Shown here piece by piece: positions 6,300-25,595 of a stretch of DNA of 64,000 nucleotides. The position numbers and the translations under genes are program-made. Source of the DNA: an uncultured Oscillospiraceae bacterium (lineage in GTDB: Bacteria; Bacillota; Clostridia; Oscillospirales; Oscillospiraceae); NCBI GenBank assembly GCA_944385365.1, contig CALWWW010000002.1:62001-126000 (forward strand), written 5' to 3'. Each line of letters starts with the position of its first letter. The first letter of the stretch is position 1. The notes beneath the pieces were generated by a model. The model did not search any database and was not told the DNA's origin. It was given only the letters and a program-made list of their open reading frames with translations.

Positions 6300-6305
6300 A
6301 CAGCT

Positions 6306-6333
6306 GCGGCTCCGGAAATCCGGAGCCGCTTTG
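6306..6333 (+). terminator. hairpin after the U32 peptidase gene
   Basis: GCGGCTCCGG and CCGGAGCCGC form a perfect 10-bp stem with a 4-nt loop just after the stop codon. The T tract is only three bases, so it is a weak terminator or a processing element. Confidence 0.5.
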
Positions 6334-6349
6334 CAAAGGAGCGTTTGTC

Positions 6350-7555
6350 ATGGAGTTCGACTTTACTACAGTCATTAACCGTCACGGCTGGGACGCACAA
6401 TCCTGGGACAATCTGGGCCAGGGCAACGCCCCTCAGCCGCCCAAAGCAGGATTTGACTGCATTCCCATGTGGATTGCCGATATGAATTTTGCCACTGTTC
6501 CGGCGGTGCCGGAAGCCCTGGCCCGCCGGGCCGCGCATCCCATCTATGGATATTTTCAGCCGTCGGACGCGTACTATGAAGCCATCTCCCAATGGCATCA
6601 GACGCAGAAGGGGACAGCCCCCATTCCCAGGGAGGCCATCGCCTATGATAACAGCGTCCTGGGCGGTATTGCCAGCGCCATGGCGGCCATTTGTCCCAAA
6701 GGGGGCCCCGTACTGCTCCATACGCCGGGCCATGTTGGATTTACTCGTGTTTTGAAGGCCAACGGCTACAATATGGTCCTCAGTCCGCTGGTTCGAGACG
6801 GAAACGGTGTATGGCGCATGGATTTTGACCATATGGAACAAGCCATCCGGGAACATCATATCCATGCCGCCATTCTCTGTTCGCCCCACAATCCCTCTGG
6901 CCGTGTCTGGGAGCGATGGGAGTTGGAACAGGCCATGGAGTTGTTCCAAAAATATGATGTTTATGTGATTTCCGATGAAATTTGGTCGGATTTACTGTTG
7001 GATGGTCATTGCCACATTCCCACACAGTCCCTTTCCGAAGACGCCAAACTGCGGACCATCGGTTTATATGCGCCATCCAAAACCTTTAATTTGGCCGGCC
7101 TGATCGGCAGCTATCGCATAATCTACAACCCCCGCCTTCGGGACCGGGTAGAACAGGAGTCCGGGCTTTCGTTCTATAATCACATGAATGTGATGACGAT
7201 GCACGCCCTGATTGCAGCCTATTCCAGCCAGGGCGCTCGGTGGATGCAGGAATTGCGGCAGGTGCTCTCGGACAATGTCCATTATGCGGTGTCGTTCATT
7301 CAGGAGCATTTCCCAGATGTGGAAGTTGCCATGCCCCAGGCCACTTATTTGCTGTATCTGGACTGTACCGGTTGGTGTGAAGCGCACAGCATCTCTTTGG
7401 AGCAGCTGTTGGTACAGGGCAGCGGTGTGGGCGTCGGATGGCAGGATGGCCGGAAATTCGGTGGCAAGTGTCATATTCGGATGAATGTAGCGCTGCCTAG
7501 AACGCTGCTGGAAAAGGCTTTTTCCCGTCTGAAGCAGTTTGTGTTTACTGCATAA
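6350..7555 (+). CDS. PatB/MalY family PLP-dependent aminotransferase
   Basis: A 401-aa fold-type I pyridoxal phosphate enzyme of the MalY/PatB group, whose members usually act as cystathionine beta-lyases (C-S lyases) and sometimes have a regulatory role. Landmarks are PMWIADMNF near the N-terminus, CSPHNPSGRVW, SDEIWSDL and the PLP-binding lysine in YAPSKTFNLAGL. The start ATG at 6350 has AAAGGAG nine bases upstream. It stands alone between the hairpin at 6306 and the alaS leader. The beta-lyase activity is inferred from family membership. Confidence 0.9.
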   Translation: MEFDFTTVINRHGWDAQSWDNLGQGNAPQPPKAGFDCIPMWIADMNFATVPAVPEALARRAAHPIYGYFQPSDAYYEAISQWHQTQKGTAPIPREAIAYDNSVLGGIASAMAAICPKGGPVLLHTPGHVGFTRVLKANGYNMVLSPLVRDGNGVWRMDFDHMEQAIREHHIHAAILCSPHNPSGRVWERWELEQAMELFQKYDVYVISDEIWSDLLLDGHCHIPTQSLSEDAKLRTIGLYAPSKTFNLAGLIGSYRIIYNPRLRDRVEQESGLSFYNHMNVMTMHALIAAYSSQGARWMQELRQVLSDNVHYAVSFIQEHFPDVEVAMPQATYLLYLDCTGWCEAHSISLEQLLVQGSGVGVGWQDGRKFGGKCHIRMNVALPRTLLEKAFSRLKQFVFTA

Positions 7556-7635
7556 GTGTACAAAAGAGAAGAGAAACTGCGGTGCTGTCCCGTATTCCTG
7601 TCGTGCATCGATGGCTGATTTAATGGGAAAACCCA

Positions 7636-7663
7636 TTGACAAACAGAAAAACTGTGATAGAAT
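7636..7663 (+). promoter_or_regulatory. promoter of the alaS leader
   Basis: TTGACA (7636-7641) and TAGAAT (7658-7663) are separated by 16 bp, and the -10 hexamer is preceded by TGA, an extended -10 element. It starts the T-box leader near 7670. Confidence 0.7.
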
Positions 7664-7667
7664 AGGT

Positions 7668-7898
7668 AGGAAAATACGCAGTGCAATGAGGAAACGAGCG
7701 GTTTTGAAAGGCCCAAGCGAGAGGGGAGACGGTGCAAGCCCCTTGGCTGGAAGGAATCGCAGCCACTTCCGAGCAGGCCGTGAGGAGCGGCCCGGTTCAT
7801 CCCCGATATCCGATGGCTGAGATACCGGATTTCCGGGTAATCAGGGTGGTACCGTGAAGCAGCAGCTTCGCCCCTGTTTGGGGGCGAAGCGTTTTTTT
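7668..7898 (+). promoter_or_regulatory. T-box leader of alaS
   Basis: This is a tRNA-sensing transcription-attenuation leader. The T-box sequence AGGGTGGTACCGTG is at 7843-7856, followed by a strong terminator (GCTTCGCCCC pairing with GGGGCGAAGC, about 7865-7890, then seven T at 7892-7898). The upstream part contains the typical stem I sequence GAGAGGGGAGACGGTGCAAG. Uncharged tRNA-Ala is expected to bind and favour the antiterminator. I did not assign the specifier codon with confidence. Confidence 0.92.
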
Positions 7899-7939
7899 AT
7901 TGCACTGCAAGCGATTGAATGATGGAGGTATCCAAACCC

Positions 7940-10621
7940 ATGGCACAGAAAAAATACGGGCTCAATGAGCTCCGCGAAATGTTCCTGAAATTTTTTGAGA
8001 CAAAGGGACATCTCCGCCTGCCCAGCTTTTCCCTGATTCCCCAGAACGACGCCTCTCTGCTGCTGATCAACTCCGGTATGGCGCCCATGAAGCCTTTCTT
8101 CACCGGTGAGCAGGAGCCGCCCCGCCATCGTGTCTGCACCTGCCAGAAGTGCATCCGTACCGGCGACATTGAGAACATCGGCAAGACGGCCCGCCACGGC
8201 ACATATTTTGAGATGCTGGGCAATTTCTCTTTCGGTGATTACTTCAAGAAGGAGGCCATCCACTGGGCCTGGGAGTTTTTGACCTCCCCCGAGTGGGTGG
8301 GTCTGGACCCCAACCGGCTCTATCCCTCCGTCTTTGCCGGCAATGAGACTACTCCGGCTGACGATGAGGCGTTCCGCATTTGGAATGAGGAGATTGGGAT
8401 TCCCGCTGATCGCATTTTCAAGTTTGGCAAAGAGGATAACTTCTGGGAGCACGGCTCCGGCCCCTGCGGTCCCTGCTCTGAGATCTACTATGACCGCGGT
8501 GAAAAGTGGGGCTGCGGTAAGCCCGGCTGCACCGTAGGCTGCGACTGCGACCGCTATATTGAGGTGTGGAACGTGGTGTTCTCCCAGTTCGACAATGACG
8601 GCGAGAATCATTACACCGAGCTCAAGCAGAAGAACATCGACACCGGCATGGGCCTGGAGCGTTTGGCCTGTGTCTGCCAGAATGTTGCCTCTCTGTTTGA
8701 CGTGGACACCGTCATGAACATCACCAACAAGGTCAGCGAGATCACTCACGCTCACTACGGCGAGTCCAATGCCAAGGACGTGTCGCTCCGCGTGATCACC
8801 GACCATATCCGCTCCGCTACTTTCATGATTTGTGACGGTGTTTTGCCCTCCAATGAGGGCCGCGGCTATGTGCTGCGCCGTCTGCTGCGCCGCGCTGCCC
8901 GCCATGGCAAGCTGCTGGGCGTCAACGAGCCTTTCCTGTACACGGTCTGTGATACAGTGGTCCATGAGAACGAGGGCCACTACCCCGAACTGCGGGAGCG
9001 TCAGGGTTATATCACCAAAGTCATCCGCACGGAGGAAGAGAACTTCGCCAAGACCATTGATGGCGGCATGAACATCTTCAATGAAATGCTGCGGGGCCAT
9101 CAGGAAAAAGGCGAAAAAGTCTTCTCCGGCGCCGACGCTTTCAAATTGTACGACACCTACGGTTTTCCCATCGATCTGACCATTGAAATGGTGGAAGAGC
9201 AGGGGATGACCGTGGACCAAGAAGGCTTCAAGGCCCTGATGGAAGAGCAGCGTCAGAGAGCCAGAAAGGCCCGCGAGGCCCTGGGCGATCTGGGCTGGGC
9301 CGGTGTGGAGTTTGGCAAAGACGTCCCCGAGACCCAGTTTGTCGGCTATGAAACGGGTACGGTCACCGACGCCAAAGTGGTGGCTCTGGTGGTGGAGAAC
9401 GAGCAGGCCGAAGAGCTGATGCCCGGCGTCGACGCCATTGTGGTTCTGGACAAGACGCCTTTCTACGCAGAAATGGGTGGTCAGGTGGCAGACCATGGCC
9501 AGATTGTCATGGAAGGTGAGCACGGTTGCTGCTTCCAGGTAACCGACGTCCAGAAAAACAAGGGCGGCAAGTTCATGCACAGTGGTAAGCTGGTAGAGGG
9601 CACTCTGAAGCTGGGCGACACCGTTCTGGCTCAGATTGACCCTGTTCGACGGAAAGCTATTATGCGCGCTCACTCCGCCACCCATCTGCTGGATGCAGCG
9701 CTGCGCGCCGTTCTGGGCGATCATGTCCATCAGGCCGGTTCTCTGGTGGAGCCCGACCGTCTGCGCTTTGACTTCACCCACTTCTCCGCACTGACGGCGG
9801 AAGAGCTGGGCCGCGTGTCTGCCATGGTCAACGAGATGGTGCTGGAGGGTTATCCTGTCGTCACCGAAGAAATGCCCATTGAGAAAGCCAAGGAGCGCGG
9901 CGCCATTGCACTGTTTGGCGAGAAGTACGGCGACGTGGTCCGCGTTGTGGAAATGGGCAACGGTTTCTCTGTGGAGTTCTGCGGCGGCACCCATCTGGAC
10001 AACACTGCCAAGGTCGGCGTGTTCCACATTACCAGTGAATTCTCCGTGGCCTCCGGCGTTCGCCGCATCGAGGCGACCACCGGTGCCGTATCCCTGCAAA
10101 CCATGAACCAGAATCAGGAGAAGCTGTTTGAGGCTGCTGCCGTGCTTAAAACCAAGCCCGGTGAACTGCGGGAAAAGGCTGAGCAGACCATTGCAGAGCT
10201 GCGGGAACTGCGCCGCATGGTGGAGCAGTTCAAGGCCAAGGAAGCCGCCGGCGAGTCGGAGCGGTTCCTCATGGGCGGCCATGCTGTGGGCAATTTGAAG
10301 GTTCTCACCGCCACGCTGCCCAATGCCGACGCCAACAAGCTGCGCCAGATGGGCGATATGCTCCGGGACAAGCAGCCCAATGTGGTGGCTGTTCTGTCCA
10401 CAGTCAACGACAACAAAATCACCTTCCTGGCTGTTTGCGGCAAGGAAGCCGTTGCCAAGGGCATCAAAGCCGGTGATATTATCAAGAGCGTCACTGCCAT
10501 CTGCGGCGGCAAGGGCGGCGGCAAGCCCGACTCTGCTATGGGCGGCGGTACCGATGTTCTGAAGCTGGATGATGCTTTGGCCACGGTGGACAATCTGGTG
10601 GCTGAAAAACTGGGACTGTAA
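7940..10621 (+). CDS. alaS: alanyl-tRNA synthetase
   Basis: This class II synthetase charges tRNA-Ala with alanine and edits mischarged Ser/Gly-tRNA-Ala. The 893-aa protein begins MAQKKYGLNELREMFLKFFE. The catalytic core is seen in FEMLGNFSFGDYFK and GLERLACV, the editing domain in HSATHLLDAALR and FCGGTHLDNTAKV, and the C-terminal DHHA1 domain in GGKGGGKPDSAMGGG. The ATG at 7940 is preferred over one 21 bases upstream because GGAGG is correctly placed before it and family members start here. Expression is controlled by the T-box leader. The HIT gene follows 23 bases later. Confidence 0.97.
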   Translation: MAQKKYGLNELREMFLKFFETKGHLRLPSFSLIPQNDASLLLINSGMAPMKPFFTGEQEPPRHRVCTCQKCIRTGDIENIGKTARHGTYFEMLGNFSFGDYFKKEAIHWAWEFLTSPEWVGLDPNRLYPSVFAGNETTPADDEAFRIWNEEIGIPADRIFKFGKEDNFWEHGSGPCGPCSEIYYDRGEKWGCGKPGCTVGCDCDRYIEVWNVVFSQFDNDGENHYTELKQKNIDTGMGLERLACVCQNVASLFDVDTVMNITNKVSEITHAHYGESNAKDVSLRVITDHIRSATFMICDGVLPSNEGRGYVLRRLLRRAARHGKLLGVNEPFLYTVCDTVVHENEGHYPELRERQGYITKVIRTEEENFAKTIDGGMNIFNEMLRGHQEKGEKVFSGADAFKLYDTYGFPIDLTIEMVEEQGMTVDQEGFKALMEEQRQRARKAREALGDLGWAGVEFGKDVPETQFVGYETGTVTDAKVVALVVENEQAEELMPGVDAIVVLDKTPFYAEMGGQVADHGQIVMEGEHGCCFQVTDVQKNKGGKFMHSGKLVEGTLKLGDTVLAQIDPVRRKAIMRAHSATHLLDAALRAVLGDHVHQAGSLVEPDRLRFDFTHFSALTAEELGRVSAMVNEMVLEGYPVVTEEMPIEKAKERGAIALFGEKYGDVVRVVEMGNGFSVEFCGGTHLDNTAKVGVFHITSEFSVASGVRRIEATTGAVSLQTMNQNQEKLFEAAAVLKTKPGELREKAEQTIAELRELRRMVEQFKAKEAAGESERFLMGGHAVGNLKVLTATLPNADANKLRQMGDMLRDKQPNVVAVLSTVNDNKITFLAVCGKEAVAKGIKAGDIIKSVTAICGGKGGGKPDSAMGGGTDVLKLDDALATVDNLVAEKLGL

Positions 10622-10644
10622 CGCGCTAGAAAGGGGACTGCACT

Positions 10645-10983
10645 ATGTCTGACTGCCTGTTCTGTAAGATCATTTCCGGGGAAATCCCCTCCAACAAGGT
10701 CTATGAGGATGAAATTTGCTACGCTTTCTACGATATTTCTCCCATGGCTCCCACGCATTTTCTGGTGATTCCCAAGGTCCATTTTGCCTCAGCCGCCGAT
10801 GTGACGGAGGAAAATGCCGCTGCCATTGGCCACATCTATATGGTCATTGCAAAGCTGGCCAAGGAAATGGGATTTGCCGATGGATTCCGTGTGGTCACCA
10901 ACTGCGGCGAGATTGCCGGGCAAACGGTGCATCACATCCATTTCCACGTTCTTTCCGGTAAGCAGCTGGGGTCGTTCAACTAA
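10645..10983 (+). CDS. HIT family hydrolase
   Basis: A 112-aa histidine-triad protein. The active-site motif HHIHFHVL is near residues 97-104, and the N-terminus DCLFCKIISGEIP carries the zinc-binding Cys pair common in HinT/PKCI-type proteins. Such enzymes hydrolyse nucleoside phosphoramidates, including aminoacyl-AMP, which makes the position directly after alaS sensible; the functional link is inference. It ends in a good terminator. Confidence 0.92.
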   Translation: MSDCLFCKIISGEIPSNKVYEDEICYAFYDISPMAPTHFLVIPKVHFASAADVTEENAAAIGHIYMVIAKLAKEMGFADGFRVVTNCGEIAGQTVHHIHFHVLSGKQLGSFN

Positions 10984-16862: not shown

Positions 16863-17596
16863 AACGAGTAGTGATTGGCTGTATTCTCATTGTTCTGGGC
16901 GTGATTCTGGTATTGCTGCCATATGGCCTGACCATGACCAGCTTATGCCTTTGGGGCTATGCGGGGCTGTTGCTTATCGACGCGTGGACCCAGCGGTTTT
17001 CTTGGCACAGGAGGATGCGAATGATTCTGATTGGTGTTGGTACAGCCGTATTCTTGTTTTTGTCTGTTGGAATGATCTATGTGGGCAGCCGTGCGGAAAG
17101 CCAGTGGGAACAGGCAAAAACATCATCTTATGCCATTGTTCTGGGCGCCCAGGTACAGGGTGATCAACCATCCAGAACGTTGCGGCAGCGTTTGGATGTG
17201 GGATTACTGTATTTACAGGAAAATCCTACCGGATTACTGATTGTTTCCGGCGGTCAGGGCCCCGATGAGGATGATACGGAAGCCGCTGTCATGTACGCGT
17301 ATCTGGAGCGCCACGGCGCCGATATGCAGCGTGTCATACAGGAGCCCCAGGCATCCAATACCCGGGAAAACCTGATGTTTTCTGCGGCTCTGGCCCAGGA
17401 AGCAGGCTGTGACGCAGCACGGCCCACCATCATAACCAGTGAATATCATTTGTGCCGTGCCCGATATATCGCCGGAACGCTGGATATGGAGCCAACAGGA
17501 TTGGGCAGCAAAACCACGCCGTGGATTCTGATGTGGAACTACGAATTGCGTGAGGTTTTTGCTCTTGTCAAAGCCTGGTTTGTAGCCAGTACATAA
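16859..17596 (+). CDS. YdcF family membrane protein (DUF218)
   Basis: A 245-aa protein with three hydrophobic segments in the first 80 residues and a DUF218 domain afterwards. Family motifs are YAIVLGAQV, SGGQGPDED, EPQASNTRENL and TSEYHLCRARYI. Members related to SanA and ElyC are implicated in envelope integrity and lipid-carrier metabolism; the precise reaction is unknown. The ATG at 16859 overlaps the stop of the ABC-F gene by four bases. It closes the comEC operon and is the last chromosomal gene before the tandem mobile element. Confidence 0.85.
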   Translation: MKRVVIGCILIVLGVILVLLPYGLTMTSLCLWGYAGLLLIDAWTQRFSWHRRMRMILIGVGTAVFLFLSVGMIYVGSRAESQWEQAKTSSYAIVLGAQVQGDQPSRTLRQRLDVGLLYLQENPTGLLIVSGGQGPDEDDTEAAVMYAYLERHGADMQRVIQEPQASNTRENLMFSAALAQEAGCDAARPTIITSEYHLCRARYIAGTLDMEPTGLGSKTTPWILMWNYELREVFALVKAWFVAST

Positions 17597-17600
17597 ATAC

Positions 17601-17636
17601 AATGCGCGGACCGTCAACACGCGGTCCGCGCATTGG
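17601..17636. terminator. strong stem after ydcF
   Basis: AATGCGCGGACCG and CGGTCCGCGCATT form a 13-bp stem immediately after ydcF. No T tract follows on either strand. It marks the end of the upstream operon. The 85 bp between it and the mobile element (17637-17721) hold no gene and no clear promoter. Confidence 0.55.
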
Positions 17637-17718
17637 TACCATCTAACCGTGCAAATGCGTCAGGGGAATGGATTGCAGCCCACAAAACCATAGAGAAAAG
17701 CTTTTTACGACCTCCCTA

Positions 17719-17754
17719 CCCAACGCAACAAAATAAAAGATGTTTTGTTGCGTT
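17719..17754 (+). other. left attachment junction (attL, dif-like)
   Basis: Arms AACGCAACAAAA (17722-17733) and TTTTGTTGCGTT (17743-17754) are perfect inverted repeats separated by a 9-nt spacer, TAAAAGATG. The 20-bp core CCCAACGCAACAAAATAAAA is shared by all three att sites; the sequence to its left is chromosomal and differs from that at the other two sites, while the sequence to its right is the element's left end. Confidence 0.85.
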
Positions 17755-17846
17755 CGGGTTCGTTCAATCGGGCCCGACTGTTCTCGGCCAGAGTTGCGTT
17801 GGGGCGTGGGCATCCAGGGCCTTGCCGCCCATTGTATACCATCCCC

Positions 17847-17926
17847 GCACAAGGGGGCCGCTCCGTCAAGGGTGCTACTGCACGGCTCTGACCGCCGCGC
17901 CCTTGATGGGGCGGCCCCTCTTGTGC
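17847..17926 (+). repeat. 80-nt long hairpin in the element (copy 1)
   Basis: Three stem blocks stack: GCACAAG with CTTGTGC, GGGGCCGC with GCGGCCCC, and TCAAGGG with CCCTTGA. Together they form a long imperfect hairpin. A second copy is at 21264-21343. Such structures serve as single-strand origins or packaging signals in ssDNA replicons; the role here is unknown. Confidence 0.7.
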
Positions 17927-18125
17927 TACTCGTGCCACCCTGGGCGGCATGGCCCATGACTGGGCAGAGGGTCCGGCGGACCCGACCGGCGAGGCCGTTG
18001 TCTTTCCCACTTTTTCCGCCCGTGGGCCGCTCCCGGCGGCCCAGTCCGGGCCTTGCGCTCCCTGGAGCCCCCAGCGGGGGCGGCAGGGCGGGGGGTCGCC
18101 GGGGAGATGCCCCCAGGTATGACAA

Positions 18126-18198
18126 AAGCCGCCCCCCAGGTCCTACGGTACACGAAACGTAGTTAAGGGGGCGGCTTCTATCCGGCTGATAGCCGGGC
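18126..18198 (+). repeat. nested hairpins in the element (copy 1)
   Basis: AAGCCGCCCCC pairs with GGGGGCGGCTT and encloses a smaller hairpin CTACG/CGTAG; the short hairpin CCGGCTGATAGCCGG follows. The copy-2 equivalent is at 21543-21615. The outer stem could act as a terminator-like or origin structure. Confidence 0.6.
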
Positions 18199-18369
18199 CT
18201 CGCGCGTATATACTACCACAAGGCGGGTGCAACTGTCAAGCCCTGGCAAGAGGCTGGCGCGTGCTGCGCTCTGGGCCCGGCCATGAACAGATTTAGCCGG
18301 GTTCCCCCAGATGGATGATATGCACAGCATATCACATCCAGGCGCGGAGCGCAAGCCCCAAAAGCCGGA

Positions 18370-18820
18370 TGCAGTCTGTTCAGCCCTGCCGGGGGGGCGC
18401 GAAGCGACCAGGAGGGCCCGCCGCGCGGGCCCTGCGCCCCCCCGGCAGTGGAGGAGCCGCCGCCAACCAGCTACCGACAACTGAGCTGCACCGACGCGAG
18501 GGGGGGCACCGCGCCCCGGCACGGAGCCGGGCTCGGCGGCTTCCTGAACTGAACAGACTGCGTAGCCCGGCGACGGGCCGCAAGGAGGAAGCTGGGCGAA
18601 CCGGGCGGGGGGAGAGCAGCGAGGGGGCGCGACCAGCGGCCACAAGCGGAGCGGACACCGACCGGGGCGACCACCGACGGGGCGCACCGCAGTGCGCCCG
18701 GGCGCGGGGGGGACGCGAGGCGGCGGCGACGGGCGCGGCGCGGCTTGCGGGGCGGGGCAAGACCAGCTAACCACCACCGCCCCCCGCCCCGCAACCCGCA
18801 TAAGGGGCGCGACCCCTACG
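18370..18820 (+). other. multibranched structured region, RNA or ssDNA (copy 1)
   Basis: Several perfect complementary pairs nest like a folded RNA. GCAGTCTGTTCAG (18372-18384) pairs with CTGAACAGACTGC (18549-18561). Inside it CTGCCGGGGGGGCGC (18387-18401) pairs with GCGCCCCCCCGGCAG (18435-18449), capped by an AGGGCCCGC/GCGGGCCCT hairpin (18414-18434). GGAGCCGCCG (18454-18463) pairs with CGGCGGCTTCC (18534-18544), enclosing CCCGGC/GCCGGG (18515-18531). Further 3', GGGCGCAC/GTGCGCCC (18680-18699) and TTGCGGGGCGGGG/CCCCGCCCCGCAA (18745-18794) form stems. No reading frame here has a ribosome-binding site or family resemblance. It matches no RNA class I can name. Confidence 0.6.
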
Positions 18821-19010
18821 GGGGAGCGACCGCCGCGCACACCTTTTTGATGCCCCGCCGCGCCATGGCGACAGCCGGGCGACAGGCGGCGGGGCAGTGG
18901 CCCCCGGACGGGGCCGCGCTGCCCTGGGCCGCGCGACTGTGCGGGCCGGGGCGGCGGGGTCGCGGACGGGGGCCACCTGCACCATCGTTGACAGAGCAGA
19001 GGGCGAGGTC

Positions 19011-19091
19011 GTGCCCCGCGCGCGCGTCGTGCGCGCGGGGCACGGGCCGCCCGACCGGCGGCGCGCTTCGGGGGCGGGGATTCCCGCCCCC
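19011..19091 (+). repeat. two perfect GC hairpins before the rep origin (copy 1)
   Basis: GTGCCCCGCGCGC pairs with GCGCGCGGGGCAC (19011-19023 with 19031-19043), and GGGGGCGGG pairs with CCCGCCCCC around GATT (19070-19091). The copy-2 equivalents are at 22428-22508. Confidence 0.75.
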
Positions 19092-19138
19092 GTCGGGGCG
19101 GCGGCAGCCATTCCGCATCCCCCCCACATCTGAGCCGA

Positions 19139-19222
19139 GGCCCCGCTTCGGATTGCGGCCCCTGGCCGCTATCCGGCGGTGGCCGACCGGGGCCGTATCC
19201 TCTACTTGATACTAGGACGTTA
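19139..19222 (+). other. candidate double-strand origin (nick site), copy 1
   Basis: A GGCCCC/GGGGCC stem (19139-19144 with 19189-19194) is followed by CTACTTGATACTAGG, which contains ACTTGATA. The phiX174 gpA and pC194-family Rep nick sites share CTTG|ATA, so nicking is predicted between 19208 and 19209. It lies 35 bp before the rep gene, whose product has the matching YxxKYxxK motif. Assignment is by sequence analogy only. Confidence 0.55.
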
Positions 19223-19243
19223 TTCCGTCAGCGGCATGCACCC

Positions 19244-20245
19244 ATGACCGGACGCGAAGAACGGGCACAAGTTAAATACTTTAGCAGAATAAAGCGATTC
19301 CCGAACCAAATTGTGGAAATTATGGCCGCAGACCGGCCCATCTTCAAGGCCCCTGGTTGGGAGCCTGTGGAACGGTCCGGCAGCTCCACAGTGTCCAATA
19401 AACGGGACACCAAACAGAACAACCAGGACCCCACCGGGGCCAGTGTGGTGCGTTCCATTCGCCGCGCCCGCGCCAAGGTGCGGGAAATCGCCCTGGCGAA
19501 TAACTTCACCATGTTTGTGACACTGACCCTGGACGGGGCCAAAATTGACCGGTATGACCCGGCGGCCATCGTCAAAAAGCTGTCCACCTGGGCCGATAAC
19601 CAGGTGCGGCGGCGGGGTCTCCGCTATGTCCTGGTGCCGGAGCATCACAAGGACGGGGCCGTCCATTTCCACGGCTTCCTGTCCTGGCCCGACGGGGCCG
19701 GGTTCATCGATTCCGGCACCATCCAGGCACCGGGGGCCAAAAAGCCACGGCGGCCACGCTCCCAGCGGCAGCGGGACGAATGGCTCGCCGCTGGCGGCCA
19801 TCCGGTCTACAACGTGCCGTCCTGGCCGTTCGGCTTCTCTACGGCCATCCCCGTTTATGGGGACTACCTGGCCGCCGTCAATTACTGCTGCAAGTATATC
19901 GGCAAGGAGATGGACGCACCCCAGGGGGAGGGCCAAGGCTGCGATCCTGCCGCGTTCCTGGGGGGCAAGATTGGCGGTCGGTGGTATTACTCCGGCGGCA
20001 AACTGGACAAGCCCCTGGTGGAGTACGCCGATTTAGGGGTACGGGATGTGGCCGCCATGGCTGGCGGCTACGCTTTCGACATTGCCGAGGCCGGGCTGTC
20101 CATGGCATTGTATCGGGGCCGTCAGCCAGAGGGCCACCAAAGCACGGGTGACCAGGTCCGCACTGGTGAGGCCGGGGAAACTGTGGTGGAGCTGCCCCAG
20201 GGCCATCAAAGCCATGTCGGACAGTTCCACGGCGGGGGGCGGTAG
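19244..20245 (+). CDS. rep: HUH rolling-circle replication initiator (Rep), copy 1
   Basis: A 333-aa HUH endonuclease expected to nick one strand of the circular element and prime rolling-circle replication. Motif 1 is FVTLTLD (91-97), the HUH metal-binding motif is HFHG (141-144), and motif 3 is YCCKYIGK (214-221). Tyr214 and Tyr218 match the paired tyrosines of the phiX174 gpA/pC194 superfamily (YxxKYxxK). The Gly/Gln-rich C-terminus (after about 290) resembles nothing I know. The ATG at 19244 lacks a good Shine-Dalgarno sequence, so the true start could be downstream, for example the ATG at residue 27. Upstream lie the candidate nick site and 1.5 kb of structured DNA. Confidence 0.88.
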   Translation: MTGREERAQVKYFSRIKRFPNQIVEIMAADRPIFKAPGWEPVERSGSSTVSNKRDTKQNNQDPTGASVVRSIRRARAKVREIALANNFTMFVTLTLDGAKIDRYDPAAIVKKLSTWADNQVRRRGLRYVLVPEHHKDGAVHFHGFLSWPDGAGFIDSGTIQAPGAKKPRRPRSQRQRDEWLAAGGHPVYNVPSWPFGFSTAIPVYGDYLAAVNYCCKYIGKEMDAPQGEGQGCDPAAFLGGKIGGRWYYSGGKLDKPLVEYADLGVRDVAAMAGGYAFDIAEAGLSMALYRGRQPEGHQSTGDQVRTGEAGETVVELPQGHQSHVGQFHGGGR

Positions 20246-20288
20246 ATGCTCCATGCGCTCACGCTCCTGTTGTTGATTTTCAACGTGC

Positions 20289-20308
20289 ATGTTTATTGTT
20301 ATAAACAT
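20289..20308. promoter_or_regulatory. palindrome between rep and int (copy 1)
   Basis: ATGTTTAT and ATAAACAT flank TGTT, an AT-rich palindrome in an otherwise GC-rich intergenic stretch, followed closely by TTGACA at 20312-20317. It may be an operator or a protein-binding site for int expression; the repeat recurs at 23706-23725 in copy 2. Confidence 0.4.
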
Positions 20309-20417
20309 TGGTTGACAGTTTGTGGAAAGTCCACCGGCCCGGAACGCCCCGCCCCGTGGGGGCTTCGGGCTCCGGGCCGCCGGTGGCTGCTGCGCTATTT
20401 TAAGGGGGTAAAAAGTT

Positions 20418-20948
20418 TTGAAAACTGAATATTTACTGGAAAAACAAGTGGAATTGGTGCTTTCTGCATTGACGCCGGTCAACCGGCTGGTCATTCGCGT
20501 TGCCATACACACCGGTTTACGGGTGGGGGACGTGCTGGCCCTCAAAACCGCCGAACTCAAGCCGCAAATGTGGGTTACGGAGGAAAAGACCGGAAAACGT
20601 AAAAAAATTGGATTGCCCGCGCCTTTGCTGGATGATTTGCGGCTTTATGCCGGGGAAAAATGGGTTTTTCCCAACGCCGTCGACCCGGAACGCCACCGGA
20701 CACGGCAAGCCGTTTGGAAAGACGTCAAACGCGCCGCCAAGCTGTTCCGGCTGCCACAGAACGTCGCGCCCCACAGCTTCCGCAAGGTCTACGCCGCCGA
20801 CCTCATGCAGCGGTATGGCGACATCGAAAAAGTTCGCCGGGCCCTCAACCATGACAGCGAGGCCGTTACGCTCATCTATGCCATGGCTGATCAGCAGCTT
20901 CGTGCCAAGGCCCAGCGCAAACGCCGCAACCATGGGCGGCTCGTGTAA
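20418..20948 (+). CDS. minimal tyrosine recombinase, copy 1
   Basis: A 176-aa tyrosine recombinase consisting almost only of the catalytic domain, about half the length of Xer or phage integrases. All catalytic positions are present: Arg35 in TGLRVGDVL, Lys57 in EEKTGK, His119 and Arg122 in PHSFR, His145 in LNHDS and Tyr154 in LIYAMA. There is no SAM-like core-binding domain at the N-terminus. The start is a TTG preceded by AAGGGGG; the Arg-rich tail ends RKRRNHGRLV. It may integrate or resolve the element at the dif-like sites, alone or with host Xer proteins (inference). Confidence 0.85.
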   Translation: MKTEYLLEKQVELVLSALTPVNRLVIRVAIHTGLRVGDVLALKTAELKPQMWVTEEKTGKRKKIGLPAPLLDDLRLYAGEKWVFPNAVDPERHRTRQAVWKDVKRAAKLFRLPQNVAPHSFRKVYAADLMQRYGDIEKVRRALNHDSEAVTLIYAMADQQLRAKAQRKRRNHGRLV

Positions 20949-20956
20949 ACCAACGG

Positions 20957-20996
20957 TTGACACGGCGGCCTTGCTGTGATACCATCAGAGTATCAC
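20957..20996 (+). promoter_or_regulatory. outward promoter with operator-like palindrome, copy 1
   Basis: TTGACA (20957-20962) and TACCAT (20980-20985) are 17 bp apart with an extended TGA before the -10. An inverted repeat GTGATAC-N7-GTATCAC (20976-20996) overlaps the -10, suggesting repression by a dyad-binding protein. GGAGAGGAGG follows, but no start codon stands at a proper distance. In this copy transcription would cross the att junction into the structured region of copy 2. Confidence 0.65.
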
Positions 20997-21081
20997 GACA
21001 GGAGAGGAGGCTGGCGAATAGCTGCACCGAGTATCAAGGCTCTGAGCAGAGGGCCCGGTTCATCAAGCGGCTGAATCCGAA

Positions 21082-21109
21082 CGTCAACAAAACAAGGATT
21101 TTGTTGAGT
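21082..21109. other. accessory dif-like site, copy 1
   Basis: Arms CGTCAACAAAA and TTTTGTTGAGT flank a 6-nt spacer CAAGGA, giving exactly the 11-6-11 geometry of Xer sites. The right arm matches that of the main att site (TTTTGTTGCGT) at 10 of 11 positions. It lies 29 bp before the element's att core. Confidence 0.65.
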
Positions 21110-21135
21110 TGGGGTCAGTTTTTTCTTCATCCTTT

Positions 21136-21171
21136 CCCAACGCAACAAAATAAAAGATGTTTTGTTGCGTT
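21136..21171 (+). other. internal att site between the two copies (attP-like)
   Basis: Element sequence lies on both sides, so this junction equals the site in the circular form. Arms AACGCAACAAAA (21139-21150) and TTTTGTTGCGTT (21160-21171) flank the 9-nt spacer TAAAAGATG. Confidence 0.85.
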
Positions 21172-21786
21172 CGGGTTCGTTCAATCGGGCCCGACTGTTC
21201 TCGGCCAGAGTTGCGTTGGGGCGTGGGCATCCAGGGCCTTGCCGCCCATTGTATACCATCCCCGCACAAGGGGGCCGCTCCGTCAAGGGTGCTACTGCAC
21301 GGCTCTGACCGCCGCGCCCTTGATGGGGCGGCCCCTCTTGTGCTACTCGTGCCACCCTGGGCGGCATGGCCCATGACTGGGCAGAGGGTCCGGCGGACCC
21401 GACCGGCGAGGCCGTTGTCTTTCCCACTTTTTCCGCCCGTGGGCCGCTCCCGGCGGCCCAGTCCGGGCCTTGCGCTCCCTGGAGCCCCCAGCGGGGGCGG
21501 CAGGGCGGGGGGTCGCCGGGGAGATGCCCCCAGGTATGACAAAAGCCGCCCCCCAGGTCCTACGGTACACGAAACGTAGTTAAGGGGGCGGCTTCTATCC
21601 GGCTGATAGCCGGGCCTCGCGCGTATATACTACCACAAGGCGGGTGCAACTGTCAAGCCCTGGCAAGAGGCTGGCGCGTGCTGCGCTCTGGGCCCGGCCA
21701 TGAACAGATTTAGCCGGGTTCCCCCAGATGGATGATATGCACAGCATATCACATCCAGGCGCGGAGCGCAAGCCCCAAAAGCCGGA

Positions 21787-22237
21787 TGCAGTCTGTTCAG
21801 CCCTGCCGGGGGGGCGCGAAGCGACCAGGAGGGCCCGCCGCGCGGGCCCTGCGCCCCCCCGGCAGTGGAGGAGCCGCCGCCAACCAGCTACCGACAACTG
21901 AGCTGCACCGACGCGAGGGGGGGCACCGCGCCCCGGCACGGAGCCGGGCTCGGCGGCTTCCTGAACTGAACAGACTGCGTAGCCCGGCGACGGGCCGCAA
22001 GGAGGAAGCTGGGCGAACCGGGCGGGGGGAGAGCAGCGAGGGGGCGCGACCAGCGGCCACAAGCGGAGCGGACACCGACCGGGGCGACCACCGACGGGGC
22101 GCACCGCAGTGCGCCCGGGCGCGGGGGGGACGCGAGGCGGCGGCGACGGGCGCGGCGCGGCTTGCGGGGCGGGGCAAGACCAGCTAACCACCACCGCCCC
22201 CCGCCCCGCAACCCGCATAAGGGGCGCGACCCCTACG
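21787..22237 (+). other. multibranched structured region, RNA or ssDNA (copy 2)
   Basis: Identical to the region at 18370-18820, with the same nested complementary segments (for example GCAGTCTGTTCAG with CTGAACAGACTGC at 21789-21801 and 21966-21978). In this copy it lies downstream of the outward promoter of copy 1 (20957), so it could be transcribed from there. Confidence 0.6.
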
Positions 22238-22555
22238 GGGGAGCGACCGCCGCGCACACCTTTTTGATGCCCCGCCGCGCCATGGCGACAGCCGGGCGAC
22301 AGGCGGCGGGGCAGTGGCCCCCGGACGGGGCCGCGCTGCCCTGGGCCGCGCGACTGTGCGGGCCGGGGCGGCGGGGTCGCGGACGGGGGCCACCTGCACC
22401 ATCGTTGACAGAGCAGAGGGCGAGGTCGTGCCCCGCGCGCGCGTCGTGCGCGCGGGGCACGGGCCGCCCGACCGGCGGCGCGCTTCGGGGGCGGGGATTC
22501 CCGCCCCCGTCGGGGCGGCGGCAGCCATTCCGCATCCCCCCCACATCTGAGCCGA

Positions 22556-22639
22556 GGCCCCGCTTCGGATTGCGGCCCCTGGCCGCTATCCGGCGGTGGC
22601 CGACCGGGGCCGTATCCTCTACTTGATACTAGGACGTTA
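22556..22639 (+). other. candidate double-strand origin (nick site), copy 2
   Basis: Same ACTTGATA sequence and preceding stem as copy 1; predicted nick between 22625 and 22626. Two origins in direct orientation would let Rep release a unit-length circle from the tandem array (inference). Confidence 0.55.
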
Positions 22640-22660
22640 TTCCGTCAGCGGCATGCACCC

Positions 22661-23662
22661 ATGACCGGACGCGAAGAACGGGCACAAGTTAAATACTTTA
22701 GCAGAATAAAGCGATTCCCGAACCAAATTGTGGAAATTATGGCCGCAGACCGGCCCATCTTCAAGGCCCCTGGTTGGGAGCCTGTGGAACGGTCCGGCAG
22801 CTCCACAGTGTCCAATAAACGGGACACCAAACAGAACAACCAGGACCCCACCGGGGCCAGTGTGGTGCGTTCCATTCGCCGCGCCCGCGCCAAGGTGCGG
22901 GAAATCGCCCTGGCGAATAACTTCACCATGTTTGTGACACTGACCCTGGACGGGGCCAAAATTGACCGGTATGACCCGGCGGCCATCGTCAAAAAGCTGT
23001 CCACCTGGGCCGATAACCAGGTGCGGCGGCGGGGTCTCCGCTATGTCCTGGTGCCGGAGCATCACAAGGACGGGGCCGTCCATTTCCACGGCTTCCTGTC
23101 CTGGCCCGACGGGGCCGGGTTCATCGATTCCGGCACCATCCAGGCACCGGGGGCCAAAAAGCCACGGCGGCCACGCTCCCAGCGGCAGCGGGACGAATGG
23201 CTCGCCGCTGGCGGCCATCCGGTCTACAACGTGCCGTCCTGGCCGTTCGGCTTCTCTACGGCCATCCCCGTTTATGGGGACTACCTGGCCGCCGTCAATT
23301 ACTGCTGCAAGTATATCGGCAAGGAGATGGACGCACCCCAGGGGGAGGGCCAAGGCTGCGATCCTGCCGCGTTCCTGGGGGGCAAGATTGGCGGTCGGTG
23401 GTATTACTCCGGCGGCAAACTGGACAAGCCCCTGGTGGAGTACGCCGATTTAGGGGTACGGGATGTGGCCGCCATGGCTGGCGGCTACGCTTTCGACATT
23501 GCCGAGGCCGGGCTGTCCATGGCATTGTATCGGGGCCGTCAGCCAGAGGGCCACCAAAGCACGGGTGACCAGGTCCGCACTGGTGAGGCCGGGGAAACTG
23601 TGGTGGAGCTGCCCCAGGGCCATCAAAGCCATGTCGGACAGTTCCACGGCGGGGGGCGGTAG
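22661..23662 (+). CDS. rep: HUH rolling-circle replication initiator (Rep), copy 2
   Basis: The 333-aa product is identical to that of copy 1, with FVTLTLD, HFHG and YCCKYIGK motifs intact, so both copies appear functional. It differs only in context: its upstream region is joined to the right end of copy 1, as in the circular form, and so includes the outward promoter at 20957. Confidence 0.88.
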   Translation: MTGREERAQVKYFSRIKRFPNQIVEIMAADRPIFKAPGWEPVERSGSSTVSNKRDTKQNNQDPTGASVVRSIRRARAKVREIALANNFTMFVTLTLDGAKIDRYDPAAIVKKLSTWADNQVRRRGLRYVLVPEHHKDGAVHFHGFLSWPDGAGFIDSGTIQAPGAKKPRRPRSQRQRDEWLAAGGHPVYNVPSWPFGFSTAIPVYGDYLAAVNYCCKYIGKEMDAPQGEGQGCDPAAFLGGKIGGRWYYSGGKLDKPLVEYADLGVRDVAAMAGGYAFDIAEAGLSMALYRGRQPEGHQSTGDQVRTGEAGETVVELPQGHQSHVGQFHGGGR

Positions 23663-23834
23663 ATGCTCCATGCGCTCACGCTCCTGTTGTTGATTTTCAA
23701 CGTGCATGTTTATTGTTATAAACATTGGTTGACAGTTTGTGGAAAGTCCACCGGCCCGGAACGCCCCGCCCCGTGGGGGCTTCGGGCTCCGGGCCGCCGG
23801 TGGCTGCTGCGCTATTTTAAGGGGGTAAAAAGTT

Positions 23835-24365
23835 TTGAAAACTGAATATTTACTGGAAAAACAAGTGGAATTGGTGCTTTCTGCATTGACGCCGGTCAAC
23901 CGGCTGGTCATTCGCGTTGCCATACACACCGGTTTACGGGTGGGGGACGTGCTGGCCCTCAAAACCGCCGAACTCAAGCCGCAAATGTGGGTTACGGAGG
24001 AAAAGACCGGAAAACGTAAAAAAATTGGATTGCCCGCGCCTTTGCTGGATGATTTGCGGCTTTATGCCGGGGAAAAATGGGTTTTTCCCAACGCCGTCGA
24101 CCCGGAACGCCACCGGACACGGCAAGCCGTTTGGAAAGACGTCAAACGCGCCGCCAAGCTGTTCCGGCTGCCACAGAACGTCGCGCCCCACAGCTTCCGC
24201 AAGGTCTACGCCGCCGACCTCATGCAGCGGTATGGCGACATCGAAAAAGTTCGCCGGGCCCTCAACCATGACAGCGAGGCCGTTACGCTCATCTATGCCA
24301 TGGCTGATCAGCAGCTTCGTGCCAAGGCCCAGCGCAAACGCCGCAACCATGGGCGGCTCGTGTAA
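23835..24365 (+). CDS. minimal tyrosine recombinase, copy 2
   Basis: The 176-aa product is identical to copy 1, with the full Arg-Lys-His-Arg-His-Tyr set and the same TTG start after AAGGGGG. This copy lies about 250 bp upstream of the host Xer-type recombinase gene, so two unrelated-length tyrosine recombinases flank the dif-like site at 24556. Confidence 0.85.
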   Translation: MKTEYLLEKQVELVLSALTPVNRLVIRVAIHTGLRVGDVLALKTAELKPQMWVTEEKTGKRKKIGLPAPLLDDLRLYAGEKWVFPNAVDPERHRTRQAVWKDVKRAAKLFRLPQNVAPHSFRKVYAADLMQRYGDIEKVRRALNHDSEAVTLIYAMADQQLRAKAQRKRRNHGRLV

Positions 24366-24373
24366 ACCAACGG

Positions 24374-24413
24374 TTGACACGGCGGCCTTGCTGTGATACC
24401 ATCAGAGTATCAC
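24374..24413 (+). promoter_or_regulatory. outward promoter with operator-like palindrome, copy 2
   Basis: The same TTGACA-17 bp-TACCAT promoter and GTGATAC-N7-GTATCAC dyad as in copy 1. Here it reads out of the element, across the att site, towards the host tyrosine recombinase gene starting at 24612, which has no other clear promoter between the att site and its start codon. Confidence 0.65.
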
Positions 24414-24498
24414 GACAGGAGAGGAGGCTGGCGAATAGCTGCACCGAGTATCAAGGCTCTGAGCAGAGGGCCCGGTTCATCAAGCGGCTGAATCCGAA

Positions 24499-24526
24499 CG
24501 TCAACAAAACAAGGATTTTGTTGAGT
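24499..24526. other. accessory dif-like site, copy 2
   Basis: Same 11-6-11 inverted repeat as at 21082-21109, 29 bp from the right att junction. Confidence 0.65.
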
Positions 24527-24552
24527 TGGGGTCAGTTTTTTCTTCATCCTTT

Positions 24553-24585
24553 CCCAACGCAACAAAATAAAAATTTTGTTGCGTT
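24553..24585 (+). other. right attachment junction (attR), perfect dif-like palindrome
   Basis: Arms AACGCAACAAAA (24556-24567) and TTTTGTTGCGTT (24574-24585) flank a 6-nt spacer TAAAAA, against 9 nt at the other two sites. Trimmed by one base each side it has the 28-bp 11-6-11 geometry of dif. Joining the left chromosomal flank to the right chromosomal flank would recreate this same site, so it represents the pre-integration target. It lies 26 bp before the recombinase ATG. Confidence 0.8.
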
Positions 24586-24611
24586 GGATGTAGTTAGACA
24601 AAGGAGAATCT

Positions 24612-25595
24612 ATGAATACAACCGATTGCTCGCAAATTCTACGGGAATTTCTCAGCTACCACGAAACCATCAAAGGTCAATCGCCCAAGACTGTTTCTGA
24701 ATACTATTTGGATTTACGGATGTTTTTACGGTTCATGAAGCTCATACGTCTGGAGCTGCCATATGATACGCCGCTGGATTCCATCTCCATTAAAGATGTG
24801 GATTTGGAATTCCTGCGCAATATCCATGTAACCGACATCTATGATTTTTTATCGTATCTTGCCAATGACCGCACCACTGGAGAATCGCCATCCGACAGCG
24901 GTATCGGCGCGGCAGCCAGAGCGCGAAAACTGTCGGCCATCAAATCCTTTTTCAAATACCTGACGGTCCGTACAAAGCAGCTGGAGGAAAATCCTGTCCA
25001 AGACCTGGAGTTTCCCAAGCTTCGGAAAGCGCTTCCCAAATATCTGACATTGGAGGAATCCAGCCGTCTGCTCCAGTCCGTGAGCGGTCCCAACGCCAAG
25101 CGGGATTATGCCATTTTGATGATCTTTCTCAGCTGCGGTATCCGCCGTTCAGAGTTAGTCGGTCTAAACATCACAGATATCTACGAAGACCGCATCCGTG
25201 TTGTGGGCAAAGGCAACAAAGAGCGCATTGTCTATATGGGCAGCAACTGCAAGCAGGCCATTGATGACTATTTGATCGAACGCAACAAAATCGAGCTAAC
25301 AGACAATCGTGCGCTGTTCGGCTCCCGTAACGGCAACCGGATCAGTGTCACAGCCGTACACCGTTTGGTCAAAAAGCATCTTCTGGATGCGGGGTTGGAC
25401 GCCACACAGTTTTCCGCCCATAAGCTGCGCCATACGGCCGCCACGCTTATGTTGTCCGGCGGTGTCGACGTAAAGACAGTCCAGGAGGTTTTGGGACACG
25501 AACATCTGAATACCACTGAAATCTATACCCATATCGAAAATACTGAATTGAAAATTGCTGCGGAAGCCAACCCTATTTCCAAACTTTCCAAGTGA
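24612..25595 (+). CDS. Xer-type tyrosine recombinase
   Basis: A 327-aa tyrosine recombinase with an N-terminal SAM-like core-binding domain (about 1-125) and a C-terminal catalytic domain. Catalytic residues are Arg178 in SCGIRRSEL, Lys200 in VVGKGNKER, His270 and Arg273 in AHKLRH, His296 in LGHEH and Tyr305 in TEIYTHI. It has AAGGAG five bases before the ATG and ends in a strong terminator. A dif-like palindrome lies immediately upstream, an arrangement known from single-recombinase systems such as XerS/difSL and XerH. Whether it is the chromosome-dimer resolvase or a dedicated recombinase is not certain, since a clear xerD lies 2.7 kb away. Confidence 0.88.
   Translation: MNTTDCSQILREFLSYHETIKGQSPKTVSEYYLDLRMFLRFMKLIRLELPYDTPLDSISIKDVDLEFLRNIHVTDIYDFLSYLANDRTTGESPSDSGIGAAARARKLSAIKSFFKYLTVRTKQLEENPVQDLEFPKLRKALPKYLTLEESSRLLQSVSGPNAKRDYAILMIFLSCGIRRSELVGLNITDIYEDRIRVVGKGNKERIVYMGSNCKQAIDDYLIERNKIELTDNRALFGSRNGNRISVTAVHRLVKKHLLDAGLDATQFSAHKLRHTAATLMLSGGVDVKTVQEVLGHEHLNTTEIYTHIENTELKIAAEANPISKLSK

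Follow-up and report, generated by a model that had tools for sequence, protein, structure and literature searches.

The DNA analysed here, which we call the window, is a stretch of 64,000 nucleotides from a contig of an uncultured Oscillospiraceae bacterium (CALWWW010000002.1, positions 62,001–126,000), and it harbors, between positions 17722 and 24585, a tandemly repeated element that we consider quite probably a small integrative plasmid of Clostridia, employing rolling-circle replication (RCR) and exploiting the dif site and Xer recombination of its host in the manner of the filamentous phage CTXphi. What is new would be a class of integrative RCR plasmids that encode a small tyrosine recombinase of their own while working like the CTX-type integrative mobile elements exploiting Xer (IMEX); because of that recombinase we say that the element works like those IMEX and do not call it a member. 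A preliminary description had proposed a rolling-circle element that exploits Xer sites, encodes a replication protein (Rep), and is devoid of genes for virions or transfer, which proposal is supported.

Tandem Units and Their Gene Content

The two units lie head to tail at 17722–21138 and 21139–24555 (+ strand), each of 3417 bp and with 0 mismatches between them, exactly as had been proposed. No further full copy of the unit was found in the 64-contig genome, two additional 35-nt matches elsewhere in the assembly being the unit's own palindrome. The GC content is 65% in the unit, 73% in the 1.5-kb non-coding part that precedes rep, and 55% in the remainder of the window. Two genes were recognised per unit, both on the + strand: an HUH rolling-circle initiator Rep (19244–20245 in unit 1, 22661–23662 in unit 2) and a 176-aa tyrosine recombinase with a TTG start, hereafter the mini-recombinase (20418–20948 and 23835–24365). 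The previously proposed gene content—an HUH Rep plus a recombinase consisting of the catalytic domain only—was confirmed by the Pfam matches, namely REP_ORF2-G2P (E 1.4e-12) and Phage_integrase, the latter over residues 5–158. In the Rep alignment the HxH pair (H141, H143) and the Y/K motif (Y214, K217) are invariant; since the fold search of Rep gave no significant match (best E 0.09) and the PDB sequence search no match, the HUH assignment rests on Pfam and these motifs. Among the scanned proteins of the unit no virion gene (Zot/pI, coat) was recognised, nor was there a relaxase match among the scanned proteins.

The stretch of about 1.5 kb per unit that had been described as non-coding was treated as such here too. 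In three close pairs of elements the substitutions in this region were distributed over the three phases as 25/32/24, 97/117/98, and 6/1/1 (the last pair having only eight changes), and among the indels were two lengths that break the reading frame, 32 and 287 nt, as well as 21 and 84 nt; coding open reading frames (ORFs) in the region were accordingly rejected. The rep and mini-recombinase genes of close pairs showed an excess of substitutions at the third codon position.

One might suppose that the array is an immobile remnant, an old insertion at dif whose tandem arose by misassembly, which supposition draws on the fragmentation of the assembly into 64 contigs. We regard this explanation as very improbable in view of the identity of the two units, the third-position excess, the existence of relatives as circles, an empty site in a genome of the same genus (below), and a second exact tandem: an independent metagenome-assembled genome (locus L107) has two identical 4047-bp units of a relative, with 0 mismatches, followed by an intact dif-like site. 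Three other loci (L095, L106, L148) bear signs of mixed or broken arrays. The copy number—single, tandem, or mixed across relatives—varies as the preliminary description had anticipated.

Insertion at dif Beside a Linked xer Gene

Three dif-like sites bound the units. At the junction between the host's left flank and the element lies attL (17722–17754, + strand), a modified dif of the attP1 type with arms AACGCAACAAAA and TTTTGTTGCGTT and a 9-nt centre, TAAAAGATG; the junction between the units (21139–21171, + strand) is an attP1 with the same centre, identical to the junction expected for a circle; and on the right stands attR (24556–24585, + strand), a restored intact dif, AACGCAACAAAATAAAAATTTTGTTGCGTT, of 30 bp, near-palindromic, and with the 6-nt centre TAAAAA. 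The earlier view that each unit is bounded by a dif-like inverted repeat thus holds as to the presence of dif-like sites, but not as to their sameness, and it had overlooked the inverted attP2 described below. The intact dif ends 26 bp ahead of a full-length host xer gene (24612–25595, + strand), whose 327-aa product matched the XerC and XerD models with E 6e-67 and 3e-62, under the curated cut-offs of those models.

An identical 30-bp palindrome is located upstream of xer in three genomes of the same genus (G053, G282, and G138), none of which had a Rep match at E<=1e-10; in a further genome, G244, nothing matched xer within the cut-off used. In G053, where Xer is 98% identical to that of the window's host, dif and xer occur without the element, which empty site agrees with the expected absence from a close relative. 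As the GC skew flips from positive to negative at about 24–26 kb, the window spans the replication terminus. The skew switch, the linked xer, and the empty dif of G053 place the insertion at what is very probably the chromosomal dif.

The arrangement recurs in other Clostridia. A scan of named genomes with the mini-recombinase gave 44 loci, 38 of which were kept (37–69% identity) and six dropped (28–30%; L108–L113, from C. difficile and similar); with the window they make up 39 loci, the named hosts including Flavonifractor, Dysosmobacter, Oscillibacter, and Intestinimonas. The pairing of Rep and mini-recombinase, which the preliminary description had expected to find repeated, was present at 36 of these, where a Rep of the window's family occurs within 2.5 kb upstream. 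The location at a Xer site recurred as well: xer was found within 1.5 kb downstream at 25 of the 39 loci, at 7.1 kb downstream at one, and on the other side at three, whereas ten had none, six of these having less than 2.5 kb of flank. At family level 27 of 400 genomes, the window's own included, possessed a Rep relative (E<=1e-10); among 20 Rep stretches examined, the ten best Rep matches were accompanied by the mini-recombinase and the other ten were not. At order level the mini-recombinase (E<=1e-25) appeared in 13 of 394 genomes—the window's own, two more from its family, and ten spread over five different families—and at these last ten loci xer was within 1.8 kb downstream in four, on the other side in one, and absent from the available stretch in five.

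Among Oscillospirales relatives the dif arms differ beyond recognition while the linkage to xer is kept: CGCTAAA in L104 (8623–8642) and in L149, and CGGCATAA in L092 (8866–8887), versus AACAAAA. Even there the att arms of the element are those of the local dif, which correspondence is what recognition by the host Xer predicts; by this indirect sign the host Xer is apparently the catalyst of integration.

An Inverted Second Site and a Predicted Forked Hairpin

Each unit contains in addition an inverted dif-like site, attP2, with a 6-nt centre (21082–21109 and 24499–24526, - strand), which begins 57 nt before the start of the second and of the third bounding site, respectively. In most relatives with both ends available the order is attL, rep, mini-recombinase, attP2, a distance of 37–178 nt, and the intact dif. 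For the folding analysis we took the 15 elements in which attL and attP2 were both available, leaving aside those whose contig stopped short of attL and those in which no attP2 could be located; in the 15 the centres measured 6–10 nt in attP1 and 6–8 nt in attP2, with the same spacing of 37–178 nt.

In all 15 the minimum-energy DNA fold was a hairpin between attP2 and attP1, with 24–36 inter-site pairs and z scores of -5.6 to -11.8 relative to mononucleotide shuffles, to be read with the reservation that several elements are close kin and not independent samples. The same hairpin was obtained in five of five more elements (three plasmids, a contig that closes on itself, and L092, with its unrelated dif arms) and in four of four where attP2 lies at the other end (16–19 core pairs, z -4.9 to -12.0); overall, each of the 24 elements folded gave a forked hairpin by pairing of attP2 with attP1. 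Moreover, in 14 elements the right flank of attP1 was complementary to the flank of attP2 at a mean of 7.6 of 10 positions with the own partner and of 4.8 with the partner from other elements, a value that 0 of 20,000 permutations attained; the left flanks of the same 14 gave no signal (p 0.46). In the clade of L089, L091, and L094 the flank letters alter on both sides together, which is covariation. The computed folds thus reveal two inverted dif-like attP sites that form a forked hairpin, as in the CTX type, and if the folding model applies in vivo, this structure would rebuild a duplex that resembles dif except for its abnormal centre.

Strand Polarity and a Possible Route of Integration

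In each of the 15 elements the centre of attL has other letters than the centre of the right-hand site, and in 11 it also has another length. A dif-like centre of 6 nt is present on the right in 14, the exception being the degenerate site of L090, and the window together with 13 more of the 15 combines one restored functional dif with an attP1 whose centre is not that of dif. Since attL keeps the centre of the element and the right-hand site that of dif, the crossover would lie at the border between left arm and centre, on the + strand; and because the centres differ, a normal exchange of both strands over an identical overlap appears unlikely.

The putative double-strand origin, TACTTGATACTAGGACGTTATTCCGTCA, is situated at 19203–19230 (+ strand), with the nick expected between 19208 and 19209 (CTTG^ATA), and again, the motif being conserved in the identical second unit, at 22620–22647 (+ strand). 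A block TACTTGATAnnnGGACRTTATTCCRTCA stands just upstream of rep in ten of ten aligned elements, with small departures, and CTTG^ATA is the nick site of pC194/phiX174-type origins. The element therefore has both an HUH Rep and an origin motif, as a rolling-circle plasmid does. Of 21 elements examined for the motif [AT]CTTGATA, 19 have it on the + strand and four on the - strand. With the nick motif and the deduced exchange both on the + strand, the strand released by Rep would be the one whose hairpin gives the observed crossover, which agreement in polarity would fit single-stranded DNA (ssDNA) as the integrating form.

A route of integration may be outlined on this basis. Rep, to judge from its family and the motif, would nick the + strand at the CTTG^ATA that precedes rep, and the ensuing rolling-circle replication would release + strand circles, on which attP2 may pair with attP1 as in the computed, covarying fold. 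The structure of the sites suggests that the Xer encoded beside dif would then exchange one strand between hairpin and dif, at the point where left arm and centre meet, and that chromosome replication would resolve the resulting junction. The expected product—an attL with the element's centre, and an intact dif on the right—is the one present in the window; and with that dif intact, dimer resolution would be spared and more copies could insert, giving rise to arrays. From a tandem array Rep could, as described for CTXphi, copy a full unit from origin to origin without excision. The mini-recombinase would most likely be an accessory or a partner in the reaction at the folded site, or else a resolvase of arrays, which is the weakest step in this scheme.

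Several observations weigh against such a CTXphi-like plasmid. The element encodes a tyrosine recombinase with a complete catalytic set, whereas CTX-type elements have no recombinase of their own, and so the reaction does not necessarily depend on catalysis by the host Xer. No xer was found at four of the 33 loci with sufficient flank (L070, L073, L080, and L081, with at least 7.9 kb downstream). The attP2 site was not found in L086, L088, and L100; in L104, L149, L155, and the plasmid L164 it follows attP1 by 30–44 nt at the left end, in an alternative layout; and the attP1 centre, with 6 nt, is no longer than that of dif in four of the 15 (L089, L091, L094, and L098). The nick motif is absent in two of the 21 elements and is additionally on the other strand in four, the kinship among the elements inflates both the permutation and the fold statistics, and no dif-like pair was recognisable in one self-closing circle (L097) or, by pattern search, in the plasmids L162, L165, and L167. 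To these points may be added L070, where the element is flanked at 2934–2963 by an oppositely oriented dif, with centre TTTTTA, and where 8 kb contain no closely matching xer.

The Mini-Recombinase

Residues R35, K57, H119, R122, H145, and Y154 of the mini-recombinase, which six we presume to be the catalytic set of tyrosine recombinases, are invariant in the 11 rows aligned, that of the window included. The predicted structure (mean predicted local distance difference test score, pLDDT, of 83.5) best matched the integron integrase IntI4, at the top, then XerH, XerA, and the catalytic domain of the P2 integrase, and the protein had no NCBIfam DNA-invertase match. FimB/FimE-type short tyrosine recombinases also consist of the catalytic domain only and operate inversion switches, not integration; the mini-recombinase shares that domain composition with them and differs in the lack of the invertase match. 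In IMG/VR 15 loci were retrieved with the mini-recombinase, only L114 being close (48%) and the others 24–32% identical, whereas a profile scan with Rep gave three distant loci and a single-sequence scan none.

The mini-recombinase itself, and not the host Xer, might catalyse an ordinary double-stranded integration at dif, in which event the likeness to Xer hijacking would be secondary. For this speak the constancy of that one protein across differing replicons, the invariance of its catalytic residues, and its occurrence on three plasmids without a dif-like pair, which might denote a broader target. The standard two-step exchange would, nevertheless, have to proceed without identity of the overlaps, the centres differing as stated; the att arms match whichever dif adjoins the local xer; and the covarying attP2 would be left unexplained. 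For these reasons we hold the proposition unlikely and retain the host Xer as the apparent catalyst.

Because the Reps of the related plasmids vary while the mini-recombinase stays, the latter is the constant and Rep the variable part. From there one may go further and propose, though only tentatively and as an idea that may well not hold, that the mini-recombinase is a dedicated enzyme of ssDNA integration or an obligate partner of the dif-linked Xer, which with attP2 and attP1 would form a portable hairpin-at-dif module taken up by different RCR replicons; such a module would define an extensive class of integrative plasmids, so far unrecognised, that spans the Clostridia and has arisen in convergence with CTXphi and with integrons.

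Circular Relatives and Inovirus-Like Prophages at the Same Locus

Four contigs (L084, L097, L105, and L156) close on themselves through overlaps of 116–141 nt into circles of 2.9–3.6 kb, a Rep of the window's type not being recognised in L097 and L156. One of them, L105, of 2895 bp, is binned with Paludibacteraceae (Bacteroidota) although the element is otherwise found mostly in Clostridia, which may reflect misbinning or a host jump. Among 72,556 plasmid records seven contain relatives of the mini-recombinase at E<=1e-12, and the accessions of all seven fall within the range given in the available text of PMC3913684 for circular DNA of rat cecum. That text states that the circles were prepared by exonuclease digestion of chromosomal DNA and that inverse PCR confirmed 38 of the 40 circles tested in that study. 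These exonuclease-resistant relatives are circles of 2.2–3.8 kb with other Rep families: three have Rep_1, one Rep_OBD/RepB, one RepL, and one no Pfam match, while one record was not scanned. The pattern search found a dif-like pair in four of them (L161, L163, L164, and L166). Close inverted repeats containing CCCTTGA (L162, L165, and the contig L097) or CCCTTGC (L167) were noticed in others, perhaps as a different target. The autonomous circular form is thus known from relatives, as circular contigs and rat-cecum plasmids, and not from the window's unit itself.

The dif-xer locus is also occupied by inovirus-like prophages. A related Rep was found in 28 of 50,697 phage records, all gut-derived and named bajarodino or Dulem viruses, and the three that were opened are all classed as Inoviridae. 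Beside the same locus a Zot match was obtained in G305 (L064), G089 (L157), and G091 (L159). In L064 an inovirus-like prophage extends over 5181–10692, with a one-armed attL at 5181, dif at 10692, and further membrane-like ORFs in addition to the Zot match; in L157 (near 5547) no attL was found, and a single arm-like 13-mer is situated 70 nt ahead of dif; and G206 (L160), where Zot was not searched, has a related Rep with a one-armed attL. The attL of L064, L159, and L160 consists of one arm plus the dif centre, so that with this VGJ/TLC-like attL in three of four inovirus-like prophages one and the same locus shows two ways of using dif.

The element could be conceived as a helper-dependent satellite of filamentous inoviruses, similar to RS1 or TLCphi, that lost the genes for coat and assembly and is carried from cell to cell in particles made by a helper inovirus of the same hosts. 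The related Reps of gut inoviruses, the Zot matches at the same site, and the likeness of tandem arrays at dif to those of CTX/RS1 would fit such an origin. Opposed to it are the lack of a Zot match in 11 of 11 family genomes that carry both Rep and mini-recombinase (with a weak model, whose accepted hits scored 22.7–30 bits against a cut-off of 20.3), and the lack of a mini-recombinase match in the stretches L064, L157, L159, and L160, whose attL, where found, is one-armed; the mini-recombinase is moreover present on plasmids with Rep_1, RepL, and RepB-type Reps. Of the 41 mini-element rows in the Rep tree, 29 group together in a cluster of their own (support 91/91), though others branch elsewhere, some near inovirus Reps, and the mini-element label requires three changes on the best tree. 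In our judgment a satellite has a rather low probability, and the presence of the mini-recombinase on free circular plasmids with other Rep families leads us to prefer a plasmid. Of the two alternatives that the preliminary description had left side by side, "perhaps a satellite or plasmid", the latter is therefore favored and the former less so.

Comparison with Known Systems

In the available portions of PMC4246890 and PMC3089051, CTXphi is described as having an attP1 centre of 12 bp and an attP2 centre of 5–7, the two sites being inverted and about 90 bp apart; its + strand folds, a single XerC strand exchange restores one functional dif irreversibly, and tandem prophages are copied by rolling circle. 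CTXphi and its satellite RS1 of Vibrio cholerae share with the present elements the inverted dif-like pair (37–178 nt here, about 90 in CTXphi), the short attP2 centre, an attP1 centre longer than that of dif (in 11 of 15 here), the restoration of one functional dif, the tandem arrays at dif, and a rolling-circle Rep; the structural items of CTXphi are matched here, bar the attP1 centre that is no longer than dif's in four of the 15. The differences are that here there are no recognised phage genes, that the elements measure about 2.4–4.0 kb, reside in Clostridia at a dif beside a linked xer, and encode the mini-recombinase, and that other Rep families exist among the relatives. Single-stranded integration of the CTXphi type is, according to the part of PMC4246890 available, known from a few proteobacterial filamentous phages. 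The VGJphi/TLCphi-type IMEX and the dif-integrated Clostridial inoviruses such as L064 have in common with our elements the chromosomal target and a related Rep, and differ by the one-armed attL, by the Zot match and membrane-like ORFs of L064, and by the lack of a mini-recombinase match.

The closest plasmids are the rat-cecum circles HG796404, HG796394, HG796380, and HG796421 (PMC3913684, in its available text), circular molecules of 2.2–2.7 kb that have a dif-like pair and a mini-recombinase 41–66% identical to a family member; their Reps are different (Rep_1 twice, RepL, and one not scanned), and in HG796421 the dif-like pair is in reverse order. The same text counts 83 "phage integrase" genes among the circles and, as far as it extends, makes no link to dif. 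Integron cassettes and IntI likewise combine a folded single-stranded att site with a tyrosine recombinase, IntI4 being the top structural match of the mini-recombinase, whereas here a whole replicon and not a cassette is involved and the recombinase has no N-terminal domain. The single-recombinase systems XerS/difSL and XerH/difH, as presented in the accessible part of PMC5357621, resemble the present locus in the linkage of xer to its own dif, and differ from it in site sequence and Xer family. Titles and abstract openings, with few subscription journals and preprints among them, yielded no account of RCR plasmids that integrate at dif, nor of the present pair of genes, in Firmicutes, and in the inovirus paper of Roux (2019) "Xer", "dif", "Firmicutes", and "satellite" occur 0 times as whole words.

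In Clostridia the site architecture of CTXphi appears on very small elements whose Reps belong to three families, namely that of the window, Rep_1, and RepL. The mini-recombinase is found also alongside a RepB-type Rep. This distribution raises the questions of how often the hairpin-at-dif device arose and of what the extra enzyme contributes. If correct, this reading would account for the small-repeat arrays that adjoin xer at the chromosome terminus in Oscillospiraceae, points to a natural module for targeting dif in gut anaerobes that are hard to modify, and provides a sequence signature—an inverted dif pair plus the mini-recombinase—for finding such elements.

Minor Observations

A small transmembrane-like ORF at 20246–20428 was considered as a coat gene and discarded, having no family match, and the gap between rep and mini-recombinase in L074 being only about 95 nt. 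An Rfam scan of 17500–24700 gave three matches, all to animal small-RNA families and under the gathering scores, which were rejected. A second Xer-like gene was seen nearby in L083 and L148. In L090 the element ends on the right (8682–8698) at a sequence that resembles dif in degenerate form and is about 7 kb distant from xer, possibly an insertion at a secondary site. By eye, Reps 30–40% identical in L056, L058, and L061 adjoin full-length integrase-like ORFs, with no mini-recombinase and, in L058 and L061, with Xis-like ORFs also near Rep; these loci perhaps represent another set of small RCR elements, which integrate elsewhere. Finally, alignment of the non-coding regions (blastn/MAFFT) disclosed a patch rich in G runs at 18034–18124 (+ strand), with a copy in unit 2, that resembles patches in seven aligned relatives and is possibly a single-strand origin (sso), a packaging signal, or another ssDNA signal; in L089 the patch occurs twice.

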